From an uncultured bacterium (GTDB lineage: Bacteria; Verrucomicrobiota; Kiritimatiellia; RFP12; CAIWXQ01): a stretch of DNA of 64,000 bases. The stretch covers positions 124,001 to 188,000 of the forward strand of contig CAIWXQ010000018.1 of assembly GCA_903916675.1 (NCBI GenBank), written 5' to 3'. Positions 3,312-60,778 of this stretch are shown here, piece by piece (within the stretch, counting starts at the first letter, position 1; the number at the start of each line of letters is the position of its first letter). The translations under genes and the position numbers were made by a program. Below the pieces are notes generated by a model. That model saw only the letters and a program-made list of their open reading frames with translations. It was not told the DNA's origin and searched no databases.

Positions 3312-3357
3312 CTTGGTTGCGGGCAACGGCCGCAGTTTTTGTCGAAAGGAAATACGC

Positions 3358-4011
3358 ATGAAGGTGCTGATAATTCTGGGGAGTCCGCGTGGCGCGCGCA
3401 GTCAGACGCGCGTGCTGGCGGAAGCGGTTCTGGCGGGAGCCCGCGCGGCAGGTGCTGAGGTCGACGAGTTGGATCTTGCCGGGAAGCGCGTGGATTTCTG
3501 CGTGGCCTGCGACGCGTGCCACAAGGGTCCGCGCTGTCCGCTGCCTGACGACTGCCGGGAGATTCTCGACGGCATGCTGGCGGCCGACGGCATCGTGCTG
3601 GCTTCGCCGGTCTACCTCAACCAGGTGACGGCGCAGATGAAGGCGCTGCTTGACCGGTCCACGCAGTTCATCCACTGCCTGCGGCTGATGGACAAGTATC
3701 TGGCTGCGGTGACCACCAGCGGTGGTGGTGGCGGTACGGAGACGCAGGAGTTCCTGCGGCGGTATGCGATGACGGTGGGCGCGCAGTGCGTGGGCGGCGT
3801 GGACGCGCGCGTGCCGCTGGCGGAAACCGATCTGGCGGCGGCACGAAAGCTGGGCGCCACGCTGGTCGAGGCTATTCGGAACCAGACCAAGGACCCTGCA
3901 CAGATTTTCGCGATCGAGGAGCAGAAGAAGCGCTTTGGCCGCGTCATCGACGCGCACAAAACCGACTGGGGCTACGAGCACGACTACTGGCGGAAGAAGG
4001 GGTGGCTGTAG
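3358..4011 (+). CDS. NADPH-dependent FMN reductase / flavodoxin-like protein
   Basis: The protein begins MKVLIILGSPRGARSQT, the FMN phosphate-binding loop of the NADPH-dependent FMN reductase family. It continues with SPVYLNQVTAQMK, which shapes the flavin pocket. Residues around FCVACDACHKGPRC are Cys-rich, as in iron-sulfur flavoproteins, although the spacing does not prove a cluster. The start at 3358 follows GAAAGGA and is preferred to the track start at 3313. It probably passes electrons from NAD(P)H to a small acceptor; the partner is unknown. A strong terminator follows immediately. Confidence 0.85.
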   Translation: MKVLIILGSPRGARSQTRVLAEAVLAGARAAGAEVDELDLAGKRVDFCVACDACHKGPRCPLPDDCREILDGMLAADGIVLASPVYLNQVTAQMKALLDRSTQFIHCLRLMDKYLAAVTTSGGGGGTETQEFLRRYAMTVGAQCVGGVDARVPLAETDLAAARKLGATLVEAIRNQTKDPAQIFAIEEQKKRFGRVIDAHKTDWGYEHDYWRKKGWL

Positions 4012-4104: not shown

Positions 4105-5160
4105 TCACCCGACAGTTTCTTCCTTCGCGGTCTTCGCGCCCTTCGCGGTGGAATTTTTCATGTGTTTTGCGGCCAGTCCATGCCGCCCGAGCGCGCTGGC
4201 CATGATCTTCCCGATGAGCTGCGTGAAGGTGACGCCGTTCAGGCGGCAGAGGATCGGCAGGTCGGAGTGTGTGGGGTTAAGGCCTGCCAGCGGGTTGACC
4301 TCGATGAAGTTGGGTCGTCCGGCCGCGTCGCACCGCAGGTCGATGCGGCCGGCGTCCACGCAGCGCAGCGCGCGCCACGCAGCCCGCGCCGCCTGCGCGG
4401 CTTCCCGTGCCACGGCGTCGGCCGGCACGGAGTAGGTCACCAGCTTCTCGTAGTCGGACTTGGTCTCGTAGGAATAAATCTCGCCGCTGCCGGGCTTGAA
4501 ATTCACCTCAATGACGCCGAGCGTTTCGGCGGTGTCGCCGGAGCCGCAGAGGCCGACCGTGAATTCGCGTCCGGGGAGGAAGGCTTCGACGAGCACTGGC
4601 TGGCGGAAGCGCGCGAGCAGGTCGTGCGCGACTTCGCGCAGCTCGGCCGCAGTTCGCACGCGCGAGCGGCTGGAGATCCCCTTGCCGGTCCCTTCGGCCA
4701 GCGGCTTGAGGAAGAGCGGGAAGGGGAGGTTGACACGGTCGATGTCTGCCGCGGCGTGCAACGTGACGAACGGTGCGGTGGGGATGCCGGCGTCGCGCAC
4801 GATGCTCTTGGTGAGAGCCTTGTCGAGGGCAATGGTCAGCACGGCGGGATCGGAAAAGGTGTACGGGATCCGGTAGGCATCGAGCAGCGCAGGGACGGCC
4901 GCTGCGCGGCCGACGCCGAACATCCCTTCGGCAATGTTGAAGACGAGGGTCCAGCGGCGGCCGGCGGCCAGCGCCTGGACGAGCGCCTGGAGGTTGCCAA
5001 CGCGCTCGGTGCGATAGCCCAGTTCCTGCAGGGCGCGCTCGATCCCCTCGATGGTGTCCGGCTTGTCGAACTCCGCCGTCTCCTCGGCGCTGAACCCCTG
5101 CGCCAGATACTCGTCGCGCAGGTCATACGTCAAGCCGATCTGCAGATCGCGTGAGTGCAT
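4105..5160 (-). CDS. D-alanine-D-alanine ligase-like ATP-grasp protein
   Basis: This ATP-grasp enzyme of about 351 residues joins a carboxylate to an amine with ATP. Recognisable pieces are FPLFLKPLAEGTGKGI (ATP-binding loop), VLVEAFLPGREFTVGL and a C-terminal FIEVNPLAGLNP that carries Mg-binding residues. It is related to Ddl but diverges from housekeeping Ddl, so the substrate is uncertain. The start MHSRDLQIGLTYDLR at 5160 is chosen because the 99 residues ahead of it in the track overlap rnhB and look non-coding. The last 18 residues (MKNSTAKGAKTAKEETVG) are encoded by the CTTCGCGG repeat and are probably not ancestral. Confidence 0.85.
   Translation of the reverse strand: MHSRDLQIGLTYDLRDEYLAQGFSAEETAEFDKPDTIEGIERALQELGYRTERVGNLQALVQALAAGRRWTLVFNIAEGMFGVGRAAAVPALLDAYRIPYTFSDPAVLTIALDKALTKSIVRDAGIPTAPFVTLHAAADIDRVNLPFPLFLKPLAEGTGKGISSRSRVRTAAELREVAHDLLARFRQPVLVEAFLPGREFTVGLCGSGDTAETLGVIEVNFKPGSGEIYSYETKSDYEKLVTYSVPADAVAREAAQAARAAWRALRCVDAGRIDLRCDAAGRPNFIEVNPLAGLNPTHSDLPILCRLNGVTFTQLIGKIMASALGRHGLAAKHMKNSTAKGAKTAKEETVG
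4122..4148. repeat. CTTCGCGG nine-base repeat, three units
   Basis: CCTTCGCGG, TCTTCGCGC and CCTTCGCGG run head to tail inside the 3' end of the Ddl-like gene. They resemble the CCTTCGTG / TCTTCGCG units of the hairpin at 22435-22547. Confidence 0.7.
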
Positions 5161-11399: not shown

Positions 11400-12806
11400 A
11401 TGGAAACCTCCGAAAATACTGCTGCGCCGGCGCACTCGCCGCTGCTCTCCGGCAGCCTGCTGCGCGCGCTGGCCGTATTGAGCGTCCCCATGCTGCTGAG
11501 CGGCGCGCTGCAGGAGACGCAGAGCCTGATCGATCTTTTCTGGGTCGGCCGCCTGGGTCCGTATGCTGTGGCCGCGGTCGCCATGCCGGGCATCGTCCTG
11601 TTCCTGCTTGCGCCGGTGGCCATGGGGCTGATGGTCGGCACGGTGGCACTGGTCTCGCGCCACGTGGGCGCCCATGAGCCGCGCGAGGCCGGGCGCGCGG
11701 CGGCGCAGTCGCTGCTGCTGAGCGTGGTGCTGGGCGCGCTGGTTTCTGTGGCCGGATGGTTCCTGGCGCCGGAGGTCTTCCCGCTCCTGGGCGTGCGCAG
11801 CACGGATGCGGTGCAGCACGGCGTGGATCCGGCGCTGATCGTGCGCGAGGGAGTCGCCTTCCTGCGCATTCTTATGGCAGGGCAGTGGCTGATGTTCATC
11901 CTGCTGGCCTGTTTCGCCTCGCTGCAGGCGGCCGGCAACGCCCGCACGCCGATGTTCTGCAGCCTGACCGCCACGGTCGTCAACCTGATCCTTGACCCGT
12001 TCCTGATCTACGGTATCGGCCCCTTCCCGCGGCTGGGCGTGTCCGGTGCCGCGCTGGCCACGGTCTTCTCGCAGGCCGTGGCGCTGGCCGCAGCCCTGTG
12101 GGCGCTGCGCGGGAGCGACCAGGGGCTTGTCCTGCAGCGCGCCGCGTTTCGCCCCCATCCTGCGCTCTGCTGGCGGATCCTGCGCGTGGGGCTGCCGGGG
12201 TCAGGACAACTGCTGCTGCGCAGCACCATGAGCGTGGCGCTCATGCGCATCGTGGCAATCTGCGGTCCCGTGGCCGTGGCTGGCTTCAGCATCGGGCTGC
12301 GCTGGCACATGTTCATCCTCATGCCTGCTTTCGCGCTGGGCAATGCTGCGGCCACGCTGGTGGGGCAGAACCTTGGAGCCGGGCAGGCGGACCGCGCGCG
12401 CCGCAGCGCCTGGCTGGCGACCGGGATTGATGCCGTGCTCATGGTGCTCTTCGCTTTGGTGGCGCTGGTGGCGGCGGAGCCGCTGGTGCGCTGCTTTACG
12501 AAGGATCCGGAGGTCATGCGCGTCGCCGTGCAGTACTTGCGCATCGTGTCGCTCTCCTATCCGGCCGTGGCGACCGGCATCATCCTCGGCCGGGCGCTCA
12601 ACGGCGCTGGCGACAGCCTGGCGCCCATGGTCATCACGGGGATCAGCCTCTGGGGGCTCCAGTTCCCCGCCGCTCTGCTCCTGATCCATGCGGTCCATCC
12701 GCCCTCGCTCGGCATCTGGCTGGCGATCGCGGCCGGTAACGTGGTGCATGCGCTGCTGATCATGGGGCGATTCCACCGCGGCGCCTGGATGCAATGCCGG
12801 GTTTAG
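11400..12806 (+). CDS. MATE-family efflux transporter
   Basis: This integral membrane protein has about 12 hydrophobic segments in two similar halves. It shows MATE-type features: QSLIDLFWVGRLGPYAVAAV in helix 1-2 and GNAAATLVGQNLGAGQADRA at the start of the second half. It would export cationic compounds or drugs with a Na+ or H+ gradient. The ATG at 11400 starts a 468-residue protein of normal length. The track start at 11325 adds a hydrophilic stretch with no family match. Neither start has a strong ribosome-binding site. Confidence 0.88.
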   Translation: METSENTAAPAHSPLLSGSLLRALAVLSVPMLLSGALQETQSLIDLFWVGRLGPYAVAAVAMPGIVLFLLAPVAMGLMVGTVALVSRHVGAHEPREAGRAAAQSLLLSVVLGALVSVAGWFLAPEVFPLLGVRSTDAVQHGVDPALIVREGVAFLRILMAGQWLMFILLACFASLQAAGNARTPMFCSLTATVVNLILDPFLIYGIGPFPRLGVSGAALATVFSQAVALAAALWALRGSDQGLVLQRAAFRPHPALCWRILRVGLPGSGQLLLRSTMSVALMRIVAICGPVAVAGFSIGLRWHMFILMPAFALGNAAATLVGQNLGAGQADRARRSAWLATGIDAVLMVLFALVALVAAEPLVRCFTKDPEVMRVAVQYLRIVSLSYPAVATGIILGRALNGAGDSLAPMVITGISLWGLQFPAALLLIHAVHPPSLGIWLAIAAGNVVHALLIMGRFHRGAWMQCRV

Positions 12807-12840
12807 GCTGATCGGCTGTAGGGGTTAAGGCTGTAGGCGG
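12806..12840. repeat. ACAGCCT-type short repeat (reverse orientation)
   Basis: On the minus strand CCTACAGCCTTAACCCCTAC is followed by AGCCGATCAGCC. It is the same phrase as at 27340-27373, in the gap between the MATE gene and lysA. Confidence 0.6.
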
Positions 12841-12856
12841 GAGCCCATCATTATTT

Positions 12857-12897
12857 TCTGTGCCCGCAGTTCCCCTCTGCGCCCTCTGTGTCCCAAA
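12857..12897. repeat. Half copy of the CACAGAG repeat (reverse orientation)
   Basis: CCCCTCTGCGCCCTCTGTGT followed by CCC is the reverse complement of the left arm seen at 1951-1971. No partner arm is present. Confidence 0.65.
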
Positions 12898-22434: not shown

Positions 22435-22547
22435 GGACACGAAGGGGAAGAAAGCTGCCCGAAAGTCGCGAAGGAACTTTGTTGCGCGCTTGGCGCGCAG
22501 TCCAAACCTTCGTGTTCTTCGCGTGCCCTTTGTTTACTTCGTGACCG
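22435..22547. repeat. Hairpin repeat of CACGAAGG type
   Basis: ACACGAAGG (22437-22445) and CCTTCGTGT (22507-22515) are perfect inverted arms. CGCGAAGG (22468) and TCTTCGCGTG (22516) extend the symmetry. The architecture parallels the CACAGAG hairpins with a different unit. Confidence 0.7.
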
Positions 22548-33042: not shown

Positions 33043-33075
33043 CGGACACAGAGAACACGGCAGAACGGAAAAAAG
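33043..33075. repeat. Half copy of the CACAGAG repeat
   Basis: CGGACACAGAGAACACGGCA leads into AGAACGGAAAAAAGG, a diverged left arm just before nadB. Confidence 0.55.
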
Positions 33076-58980: not shown

Positions 58981-59396
58981 AACCGGTTACTTCTCTGATT
59001 CCGCATCGCGATCCGTTCCTGTTCGTGGACCGCATCGTTTCGGCCAGCAGGGAGAAGATCGTCGGCGAACGCACGTTCCCGGCGGACACGTGGTTCTTCA
59101 AGGGGCATTTTCCGGAATACCCGGTCGTGCCGGGCGTCATCCTGATCGAGACCATGGCACAGTGCGGCGGCGCGGGTTTGGTGTATGCCGAACTGATGCA
59201 GAATCGCGTGTTTCTACTGGTTTCCGTGTCAGAGGCTAAGTTTCGCCGGCAGGTGCGGCCGAACGAACTTCTACGAATGGAGATCGAAAACCTGAAGATC
59301 TCCAACCGTCTTTGCAAGCAGCGTGGCAAGGCCTGGGTCGGCGACGAGCTCGCCGCCGAGGCCGAATGGTTCTGTGTGCCCGGGAAGGAAACATGA
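58977..59396 (+). CDS. fabZ: 3-hydroxyacyl-ACP dehydratase, FabZ/FabA-type
   Basis: The hotdog-fold dehydratase signature is present: LIPHRDPFLFVDRI, KGHFPEYPVVPGVILIETMA with the catalytic His. The length of 139 residues fits FabZ. The ATG at 58977 overlaps the fabF TGA. The next gene starts inside its stop codon, so fabF-fabZ-fabV are translationally coupled. Confidence 0.95.
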   Translation: MKPVTSLIPHRDPFLFVDRIVSASREKIVGERTFPADTWFFKGHFPEYPVVPGVILIETMAQCGGAGLVYAELMQNRVFLLVSVSEAKFRRQVRPNELLRMEIENLKISNRLCKQRGKAWVGDELAAEAEWFCVPGKET

Positions 59397-60526
59397 GCGC
59401 CCCCGCCCGGATCGCCAACGGCGTCTGCCTCGACGTGAATCCGGCCGGTTGTGCGCGTCAGGTGGCGGAGCAGGTCGCGGCCGAGCGCCTCCTGCCGCCG
59501 CTGGCCAGTGGCCCGCGTGCCGTACTCGTGCTCGGCGCCTCCGGCGGCTACGGTCTGGCTGCGCGCGTCGTGGCGGCGTTCGGCGCAGGCGCCCGTACGC
59601 TGGGCGTCTCCTTTGAGCGCGAGCCGCGCGAAAACCGCGGCGGCTCCCCCGGCTGGTACAACAATCTGGCCTTCGACGGGGAGGCGCGCCGGCACGGCCT
59701 CTCCTCTATCACGCTGGTGGCCGACGCCTACCTGTCCGCCACCAAGGCCCGCGTGATCGAGGCCGCGCGCGCCAACGGCTTCGAGAAGTTTGATCTCGTG
59801 GTCTACAGCCTGGCCGCGCCCATGCGCACCGACCCCGCCACCGGCACGATCTATCGCACGGCTATCAAGCCCATCGGCCAGCCGTATTCAGCCCTGACGC
59901 TCAACCTCGCCGCCGGCACACTCAAGACCACCACGATCGCGCCAGCCACGGAGGAGGAGACCCTCGGCACGGTCAAGGTCATGGGCGGTGAGGACTGGAA
60001 GCTCTGGATCGATGCCCTGCTGGAGGCTAGCCTGCTGCACGAGGGGGTCCGGACGCTTGCGTTCTCCTATCTGGGGCCGGCCTGCACACGCGCCGTCTAC
60101 CGCTCCGGCACGCTGGGGCGTGCCAAGGCGCATCTGGAGGCCACAGCCCACGAGCTCGACGCGCAGCTCGCCCCACTCGGCGGCCACGCCTACGTCGCCA
60201 TCTGTAAGGCGCTCGTGACGCGCGCCAGCGCGGTCATCCCCGCCATGCCGCTCTACCTGGCCGCGCTCTACCGGGTCATGAAGGCCCGCGGCCTGCACGA
60301 GAACTGCCTGGATCAGATGAACCGCCTCTTTCGCGACCGCCTCTGCACCGGTCGTCCCGTGCCCGTGGACAAGGAGGGGCGCATCCGTCTCGACGACTGG
60401 GAAATGCGTGACGACGTGCAGGCGGAAGTGACCCAACTGCTGAACACGGTCACGCCGGAAAACGTTTGGAGTCTCGTGGATTACGAGGGGTATCAGCACG
60501 ATTTCCTGTCCCTGCACGGGTTGTGA
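59393..60526 (+). CDS. fabV: Trans-2-enoyl-ACP/CoA reductase, FabV type
   Basis: FabV is the NAD(P)H enoyl reductase that replaces FabI in many bacteria. The long glycine motif LVLGASGGYGLAARV begins near residue 45. The Y-x8-K active site is in YRSGTLGRAKAHLE, and the middle SPGWYNNLAF is typical. At 377 residues it is far longer than FabI (about 260). It overlaps the fabZ stop (ATGA). Confidence 0.93.
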   Translation: MSAPARIANGVCLDVNPAGCARQVAEQVAAERLLPPLASGPRAVLVLGASGGYGLAARVVAAFGAGARTLGVSFEREPRENRGGSPGWYNNLAFDGEARRHGLSSITLVADAYLSATKARVIEAARANGFEKFDLVVYSLAAPMRTDPATGTIYRTAIKPIGQPYSALTLNLAAGTLKTTTIAPATEEETLGTVKVMGGEDWKLWIDALLEASLLHEGVRTLAFSYLGPACTRAVYRSGTLGRAKAHLEATAHELDAQLAPLGGHAYVAICKALVTRASAVIPAMPLYLAALYRVMKARGLHENCLDQMNRLFRDRLCTGRPVPVDKEGRIRLDDWEMRDDVQAEVTQLLNTVTPENVWSLVDYEGYQHDFLSLHGL

Positions 60527-60530
60527 TCGA

Positions 60531-60667
60531 ACACGGTTTTGGACACAGAGAGCACAGAGGATAAAAAATGAGCACACAGAGGAAGTGATCCTCACCGCCA
60601 GGCGTTTAAAGACGCATCCCTCTGTGTGCTCTGTCTTCCTCTGTGCTCTCTGTGTCCTGAACCGTGT
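60531..60667. repeat. Long-hairpin repeat of the CACAGAG family, full copy
   Basis: GGACACAGAGAGCACAGAGG (60541) and its exact complement at 60638-60657 are 20-bp perfect arms. They extend to ACACGGTT/AACCGTGT outside. Inner arms GAGCACACAGAG (60570) and CTCTGTGTGCTC (60620) are also perfect. The element lies between fabV and etfB and could form a stable hairpin or a terminator/attenuator. Confidence 0.9.
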
Positions 60668-60778
60668 AGCGCGACCTTGACGGAAACGGGCGCCAGCCGC
60701 TATTTTAAGCGGCTTTTAGCAACAGGACGGTTGCGGGGGAGTTTTCCCCCGGCAGGGGCATCAACGGGAGCAAGCAAC

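Follow-up and report, generated by a model that had tools for sequence, protein, structure and literature searches.

Several described systems come close to the CACAGAG repeats analysed here. REP and REPIN elements with their RAYT (TnpA-REP) partner (PMC3116915, PMC2817692) resemble them as short intergenic inverted-repeat elements, present in tens of copies, whose rare coding partner lies within the same repeats; REPs of the GTAG type are known from the PVC group (PMC3733652). Bacterial MITEs (RUP, Nezha and others) are alike in being non-coding, in their terminal inverted repeats and in including one or more copies that arose from a coding element by internal deletion. The IVS of 23S rRNA with an S23p ORF (PMC4990558) share a size of about 0.45 kb, one small ORF and terminal inverted repeats. 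The family entry for GxxExxY, the protein encoded between the arrays of our elements (TIGR04256; PF13366, PDDEXK_3), describes the protein alone and not the arrays. In the literature searched, outside which many subscription papers lie, GxxExxY is merely mentioned in passing, and we found neither a published tie of this protein to arrays nor a description of a PDDEXK with inverted repeats or of a REPIN-like GxxExxY system.

The window, that is, the whole stretch of 64,000 nucleotides that was analysed, holds two full CACAGAG elements, single arms and arrays of a second box type, as follows.

60531–60582, + strand: left arm of full element 1, read directly from the sequence and by the arm model; weak outer part ACACGGTTTT, then boxes 60544–60550 and 60553–60559, GAG at 60570–60572 and box 60575–60581
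60583–60618, no strand: loop of element 1, without similarity to other loops and without a GxxExxY remnant
60619–60668, − strand: right arm of element 1; boxes 60620–60626, 60639–60645 and 60648–60654, outer part to 60667
1951–1989, + strand: left arm of full element 2; boxes 1954–1960, 1963–1969 and 1982–1988
1990–2022, no strand: loop of element 2
2023–2061, − strand: right arm of element 2; its boxes pair with the left arm, its NN steps and spacer are unpaired
2395–2433, + strand: half element, a single arm (arm model)
12856–12893, − strand: half element, a single arm (arm model)
33044–33060, + strand: arm remnant, GGACACAGAG plus a partial second box, missed by the arm model
4123–4147, − strand: single arm of the second box type (three CGCGAAG boxes), as found on either side of the C46 contig's GxxExxY gene
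22508–22523, − strand: two boxes of the CGCGAAG/CACGAAG type

The arm is a 39-nt array with a 9-nt period, GGACACAGAG-NN-CACAGAG-N7-GAG-NN-CACAGAG, and its full plan reads GGA-CACAGAG-NN-CACAGAG-N7-GAG-NN-CACAGAG-R, with a weak outer part ACA(A/C)GGGTTT. At up to two mismatches, CACAGAGRNCACAGAG has 8 matches in the window against 0.15 expected. The two-tier plan and the unit of about nine nucleotides proposed in the initial annotation are borne out, and both full elements are present at the places given there. Of its three half elements, those at 2395 and 12857 each comprise one complete arm; the one at 33043 is only a remnant. Its perfect stems hold, nearly, for a single copy, the one at 60531; pairing in the 1951 copy and in most others is confined to the boxes and leaves out the 2-nt NN steps and the spacer. 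The stability of the predicted folds is z = −13.8 for 60531–60668 and z = −5.5 for 1945–2069.

Across the genome (2.48 Mb in 48 contigs) we count at least 64 CACAGAG-type elements, 35 paired and 29 single-arm, from 99 arms in the fetched neighbourhoods, so that the repeats are a family rather than two copies of one duplication. This number is a lower bound because two contigs break within CACAGAG arms, C23 at its start and C40 at its end. At up to one mismatch, CACAGAGNNCACAGAG has 114 matches genome-wide (58 + 56), 58 of them exact; read backwards, it has none in the whole genome. The elements examined are intergenic, sitting among protein genes and not in rRNA. Loops of the paired elements measure mostly 7–103 nt and for the most part do not match each other, which rules out recent duplication of whole elements; near-identical recent copies were not found among the CACAGAG hairpins. 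Target-site duplications were not detected in this genome either, the longest flank repeats being equal to those of shuffled pairs. At L049, two copies of one right arm (3520–3553 and 4186–4228) differ by one additional 9-bp unit, which suggests that arrays gain and lose entire units, as also seen in L175 compared with L257.

Matched arms had been taken initially as a sign that selection or a copying process keeps the two halves of an element paired. Comparison of the arms points the other way. Similarity within an element is equal to or below that between elements for both NN steps and the spacer (z = −1.0 for NN1, −1.6 for NN2 and −1.0 for the spacer), and in spacer length and outer flank the arms of one element are no more similar than arms of different elements. 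Among 66 box deviations found in one or both arms, only 1 is common to both, against 2.2 expected if the arms were independent. The arms thus diverge independently, the very outcome that the initial annotation had named as refuting its reading, and matching through copying or compensatory change is rejected by these comparisons. Box identity nevertheless reaches 96% in arms brought in through their partner alone. Hence, the conserved feature is the sequence motif of the boxes, arm by arm, and not the pairing, which points to a protein that reads the sequence rather than to a stem. For elements shared by genomes G026 and G038, the copies are too similar for a difference between box and spacer substitution rates to show.

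These observations bear directly on the reading of the elements as RNA, in which transcribed stem-loops would terminate transcription, provide RNase III sites or be processed in the manner of IVS. The folds are very stable, and the S23p-encoding IVS elements share the overall plan (PMC4990558), yet compensatory change is absent and so is any bias to convergent gaps or 3′ ends: full elements lie in 15 tandem, 9 divergent and 3 convergent gaps. An ending of RNA by the elements, as suggested initially, is accordingly not favoured. An intrinsic terminator, with its hairpin and T-run at the 3′ end of a gene, does not describe this genome's CACAGAG family, in which no T-run was found and many elements occupy divergent gaps. 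No credible Rfam family was matched, the weak hits being sub-cut-off plant and animal miRNA models that we attribute to the long stems. An RNA function is very improbable on this evidence.

A candidate for the protein reader is encoded within the repeats themselves. The genome has three GxxExxY genes, and all three lie between inverted arrays; their products are clear members of the family (138–145 bits against a cut-off of 35 for TIGR04256, 136–144 against 22 for PF13366). The gene on contig C14 occupies the loop of an element with the exact local CACAGAG arm, GAAGATTGAG tier included (arms at L030:2880–2926 and 3350–3389). Near-perfect CGCAGAG-type arrays bracket the gene on C13, and CGCGAAG-type arrays that on C46; non-coding arrays of the latter type also occur in the genome, two of them within the window. 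One full CGCGAAG hairpin (L351:987–1139) encodes MDVEMVAAEVLKA fused in frame to GMQRVVRNHPTYPLRAPSRPSR, corresponding to N- and C-terminal parts of GxxExxY, with a match score of 69 against a best of 38 in 20,000 shuffles, a post hoc test passed by a wide margin. Judged by its coding remnant, this hairpin is an internal-deletion derivative of a GxxExxY coding element. No GxxExxY remnant was found in loops of the CACAGAG hairpins except at C14; since, in addition, these loops are mostly unrelated to each other, the CACAGAG copies are not recent deletion derivatives. They may have originated by single-arm insertion or by old decay.

All 58 GxxExxY homologues compared have E35, D75, E85, K87 and Q99, and Y103 is nearly invariant among them. 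An AF2 model built from the alignment has a pLDDT of 92 and a pTM of 0.85; its top PDB matches, both weak (TM about 0.5), are Cas4 (SSO0001) and lambda exonuclease, and two viral predicted structures, one annotated PD-(D/E)XK, match it well (TM 0.74–0.77). With its E...D...ExK...QxxxY set and this fold, GxxExxY is predicted to be a compact PD-(D/E)XK nuclease of the RecB/Cas4/lambda-exonuclease type. On these results, it is most likely active as a nuclease.

The association of gene and arrays extends far beyond this genome. At 102 GxxExxY loci, taken from this class, from named genomes of many bacterial phyla and from some archaea, inward-facing arrays of two units lie upstream in 69, downstream in 73 and on both sides in 61, compared with 10 and 10 outward-facing arrays and 11 matches in 756 control scans (p ~1e-104). 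Unit spacing peaks at 9 bp (129 cases, against 40 at 10 bp). Boxes of one locus are mostly of a single type, which differs from locus to locus, and box distance tracks protein distance (Mantel r 0.21, reached in 0 of 500 shuffles). Within the class, where 146 of 193 genomes have GxxExxY in up to 21 copies, the gene is present in 55 of the 59 genomes with the exact CACAGAG pattern and in 91 of the 134 without it (p 6e-5). The pattern occurs without a detected gene in four genomes, one of them (G098) with 18 sites, the drafts being incomplete. A tandem pair of near-identical CACAGAG hairpins, about 157 bp apart, was seen in that same genome (L358, contig C67), in which the GxxExxY gene is undetected. 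Phyla are intermingled in the protein tree (27 changes, where 14 would be the minimum), few branches of which are well supported; GxxExxY was found on 8 of 72,556 plasmid records and on none of 50,697 phage records. That GxxExxY goes together with its arrays in bacteria and archaea alike suggests a kind of mobile DNA that has received little study.

Comparisons between related genomes display presence and absence of such elements. In genus g3, the close relative G038 lacks, at syntenic positions, arrays that G026 carries (L177:1215–2228 against 15 bp, L175:3046–3560 against 115 bp). These arrays are of a more complex type and the fetched stretches hold no GxxExxY gene, so that they show gain or loss and not its mechanism. 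Several G026 arrays start right behind the T-run of an intrinsic terminator (L177:1262, L175:3046 and L177:16330); G038 has the terminator as well at two of them. In Methanophagales, a hairpin within the right arm of a GxxExxY element in L104 is missing in L113, and L333 has a full hairpin where its relative L349 has an arm, at each arm. The direction of these changes is ambiguous, and some (L104/L113) could be precise losses rather than gains. G001, a genome of the same genus, lacks at the syntenic position (contig C191) both the gene preceding element 1 (window 59388–60526), which we take to be a FabV-like reductase, and the element itself; because the reductase gene is absent there too, G001 cannot serve as the empty site of the 60531 element.

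Taken together, the CACAGAG hairpins are probably the mostly gene-less, MITE- or REPIN-like members of a family of small elements served by a box-recognising PD-(D/E)XK nuclease, which would also mobilise them. An element is built of two inverted arrays whose 9-bp units comprise CRCNRAG (CACAGAG in the present case) and 2 free bases, and its coding form has a single gene, GxxExxY, between the arrays. The nuclease, or a complex containing it, would bind the boxes in double-stranded or extruded DNA and cut at the arrays, and repair or replication would copy the element elsewhere in the genome, in many cases next to or into existing arrays. After loss of the gene, what would remain of an element is a hairpin or a single arm, the hairpin itself being a by-product of two inverted binding arrays and not a selected feature.

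A different explanation keeps the arrays in place, as sites for a nucleoid or regulatory host protein that the nuclease gene merely exploits. The 96% conservation of the boxes, the NN steps, spacers and flanks that are no more alike within than between elements, and the absence of near-identical recent copies would all fit such sites, but fixed sites agree poorly with an exact-site copy number that swings from 58 to 0 among relatives, with a box type that follows the nuclease sequence, and with a deletion derivative and presence/absence between close genomes. We consider this explanation unlikely. Pure mobile debris is insufficient as well, because the boxes are conserved while all else is saturated. 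With saturated surroundings and no recent copies, either the nuclease-served elements turn over continuously with unrelated loops, or the boxes are under in-place selection as well.

GTAG-REP-like palindromes (TGTAGCCGCGGCCGG) were observed directly within the loop, beside the arm, at L019:3547, L021:3238, L024:548, L031:2989 and L039:3271. Together with the general plan of palindromic intergenic repeats and one coding partner, they could be read as the mark of REP or REPIN elements moved by a Y1 (RAYT/TnpA-REP) transposase, with GxxExxY as a passenger. The palindromes are restricted to some loops, however, and the arm itself (consensus GGACACAGAGNNCACAGAG...) carries no GTAG or CGTC tag; its structure is that of a 9-nt box array, not of a short palindrome with imperfections, and in many phyla it is consistently found on both sides of GxxExxY, which leaves the passenger scenario quite unlikely.

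The same plan surrounds an unrelated gene. The genome has nine matches to the S23p/four-helix-bundle family (TIGR02436), of which six lie between inverted arrays of other short units. The arrays at S23p loci of this genome (L274–L279) and of the class (L282–L310) consist of degenerate units such as AGTCAGA, AGGCTGTAG and GACCTGA, among others. Flanking inverted matches scoring at least 30 were found at 24 of 34 class loci; the controls gave none in 34 distant windows taken from these loci and 2% among shuffled pairings. Within the window, GGCTGTAGGGGTTAAGGCTGTAGG (12805–12840) adjoins the half element at 12856, and its unit resembles that around some S23p genes (L306). The S23p elements share the plan of the GxxExxY elements, and this recalls the S23p-coding IVS of 23S rRNA (PMC4990558). 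Tentatively, inverted short-period box arrays around one small gene might be a separate class of bacterial and archaeal mobile DNA that uses none of the known types of transposase or recombinase, with ends read by box sequence and free spacers, whose plan at least two unrelated proteins (GxxExxY with 9-bp units, and the S23p/four-helix bundle with mostly 7–8-bp units) would have taken on independently.

GxxExxY is a widespread orphan nuclease, and its tie to a defined DNA array makes its target directly testable. The reading as nuclease-served elements could also account for the repeats of the CACAGAG, CACGAAG, CGCGAAG and CACGGAG types that are dispersed in environmental genomes, and the presence of this plan at S23p genes may help with the long-standing question of the spread of IVS-type elements. 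Unlike those IVS, the CACAGAG-family elements are intergenic and not in rRNA, encode a nuclease and end in box arrays. In contrast to REPIN/RAYT systems, their partner is a PD-(D/E)XK nuclease and not a Y1 HUH transposase, and each of their arms is a series of 9-bp boxes in which the 2-bp steps are free to vary. With MITEs they have in common terminal inverted repeats, small size, the lack of coding capacity and multiple copies, as well as ends shared with an autonomous element (the same arms at C14, the internal deletion at L351); they differ from them in their mostly unrelated loops and in a coding partner that is not a DDE transposase. Membership in either group is not claimed, because the REP tag and target-site duplication were not detected; in its mode of working, the family appears to be like the REPIN/RAYT or MITE systems.
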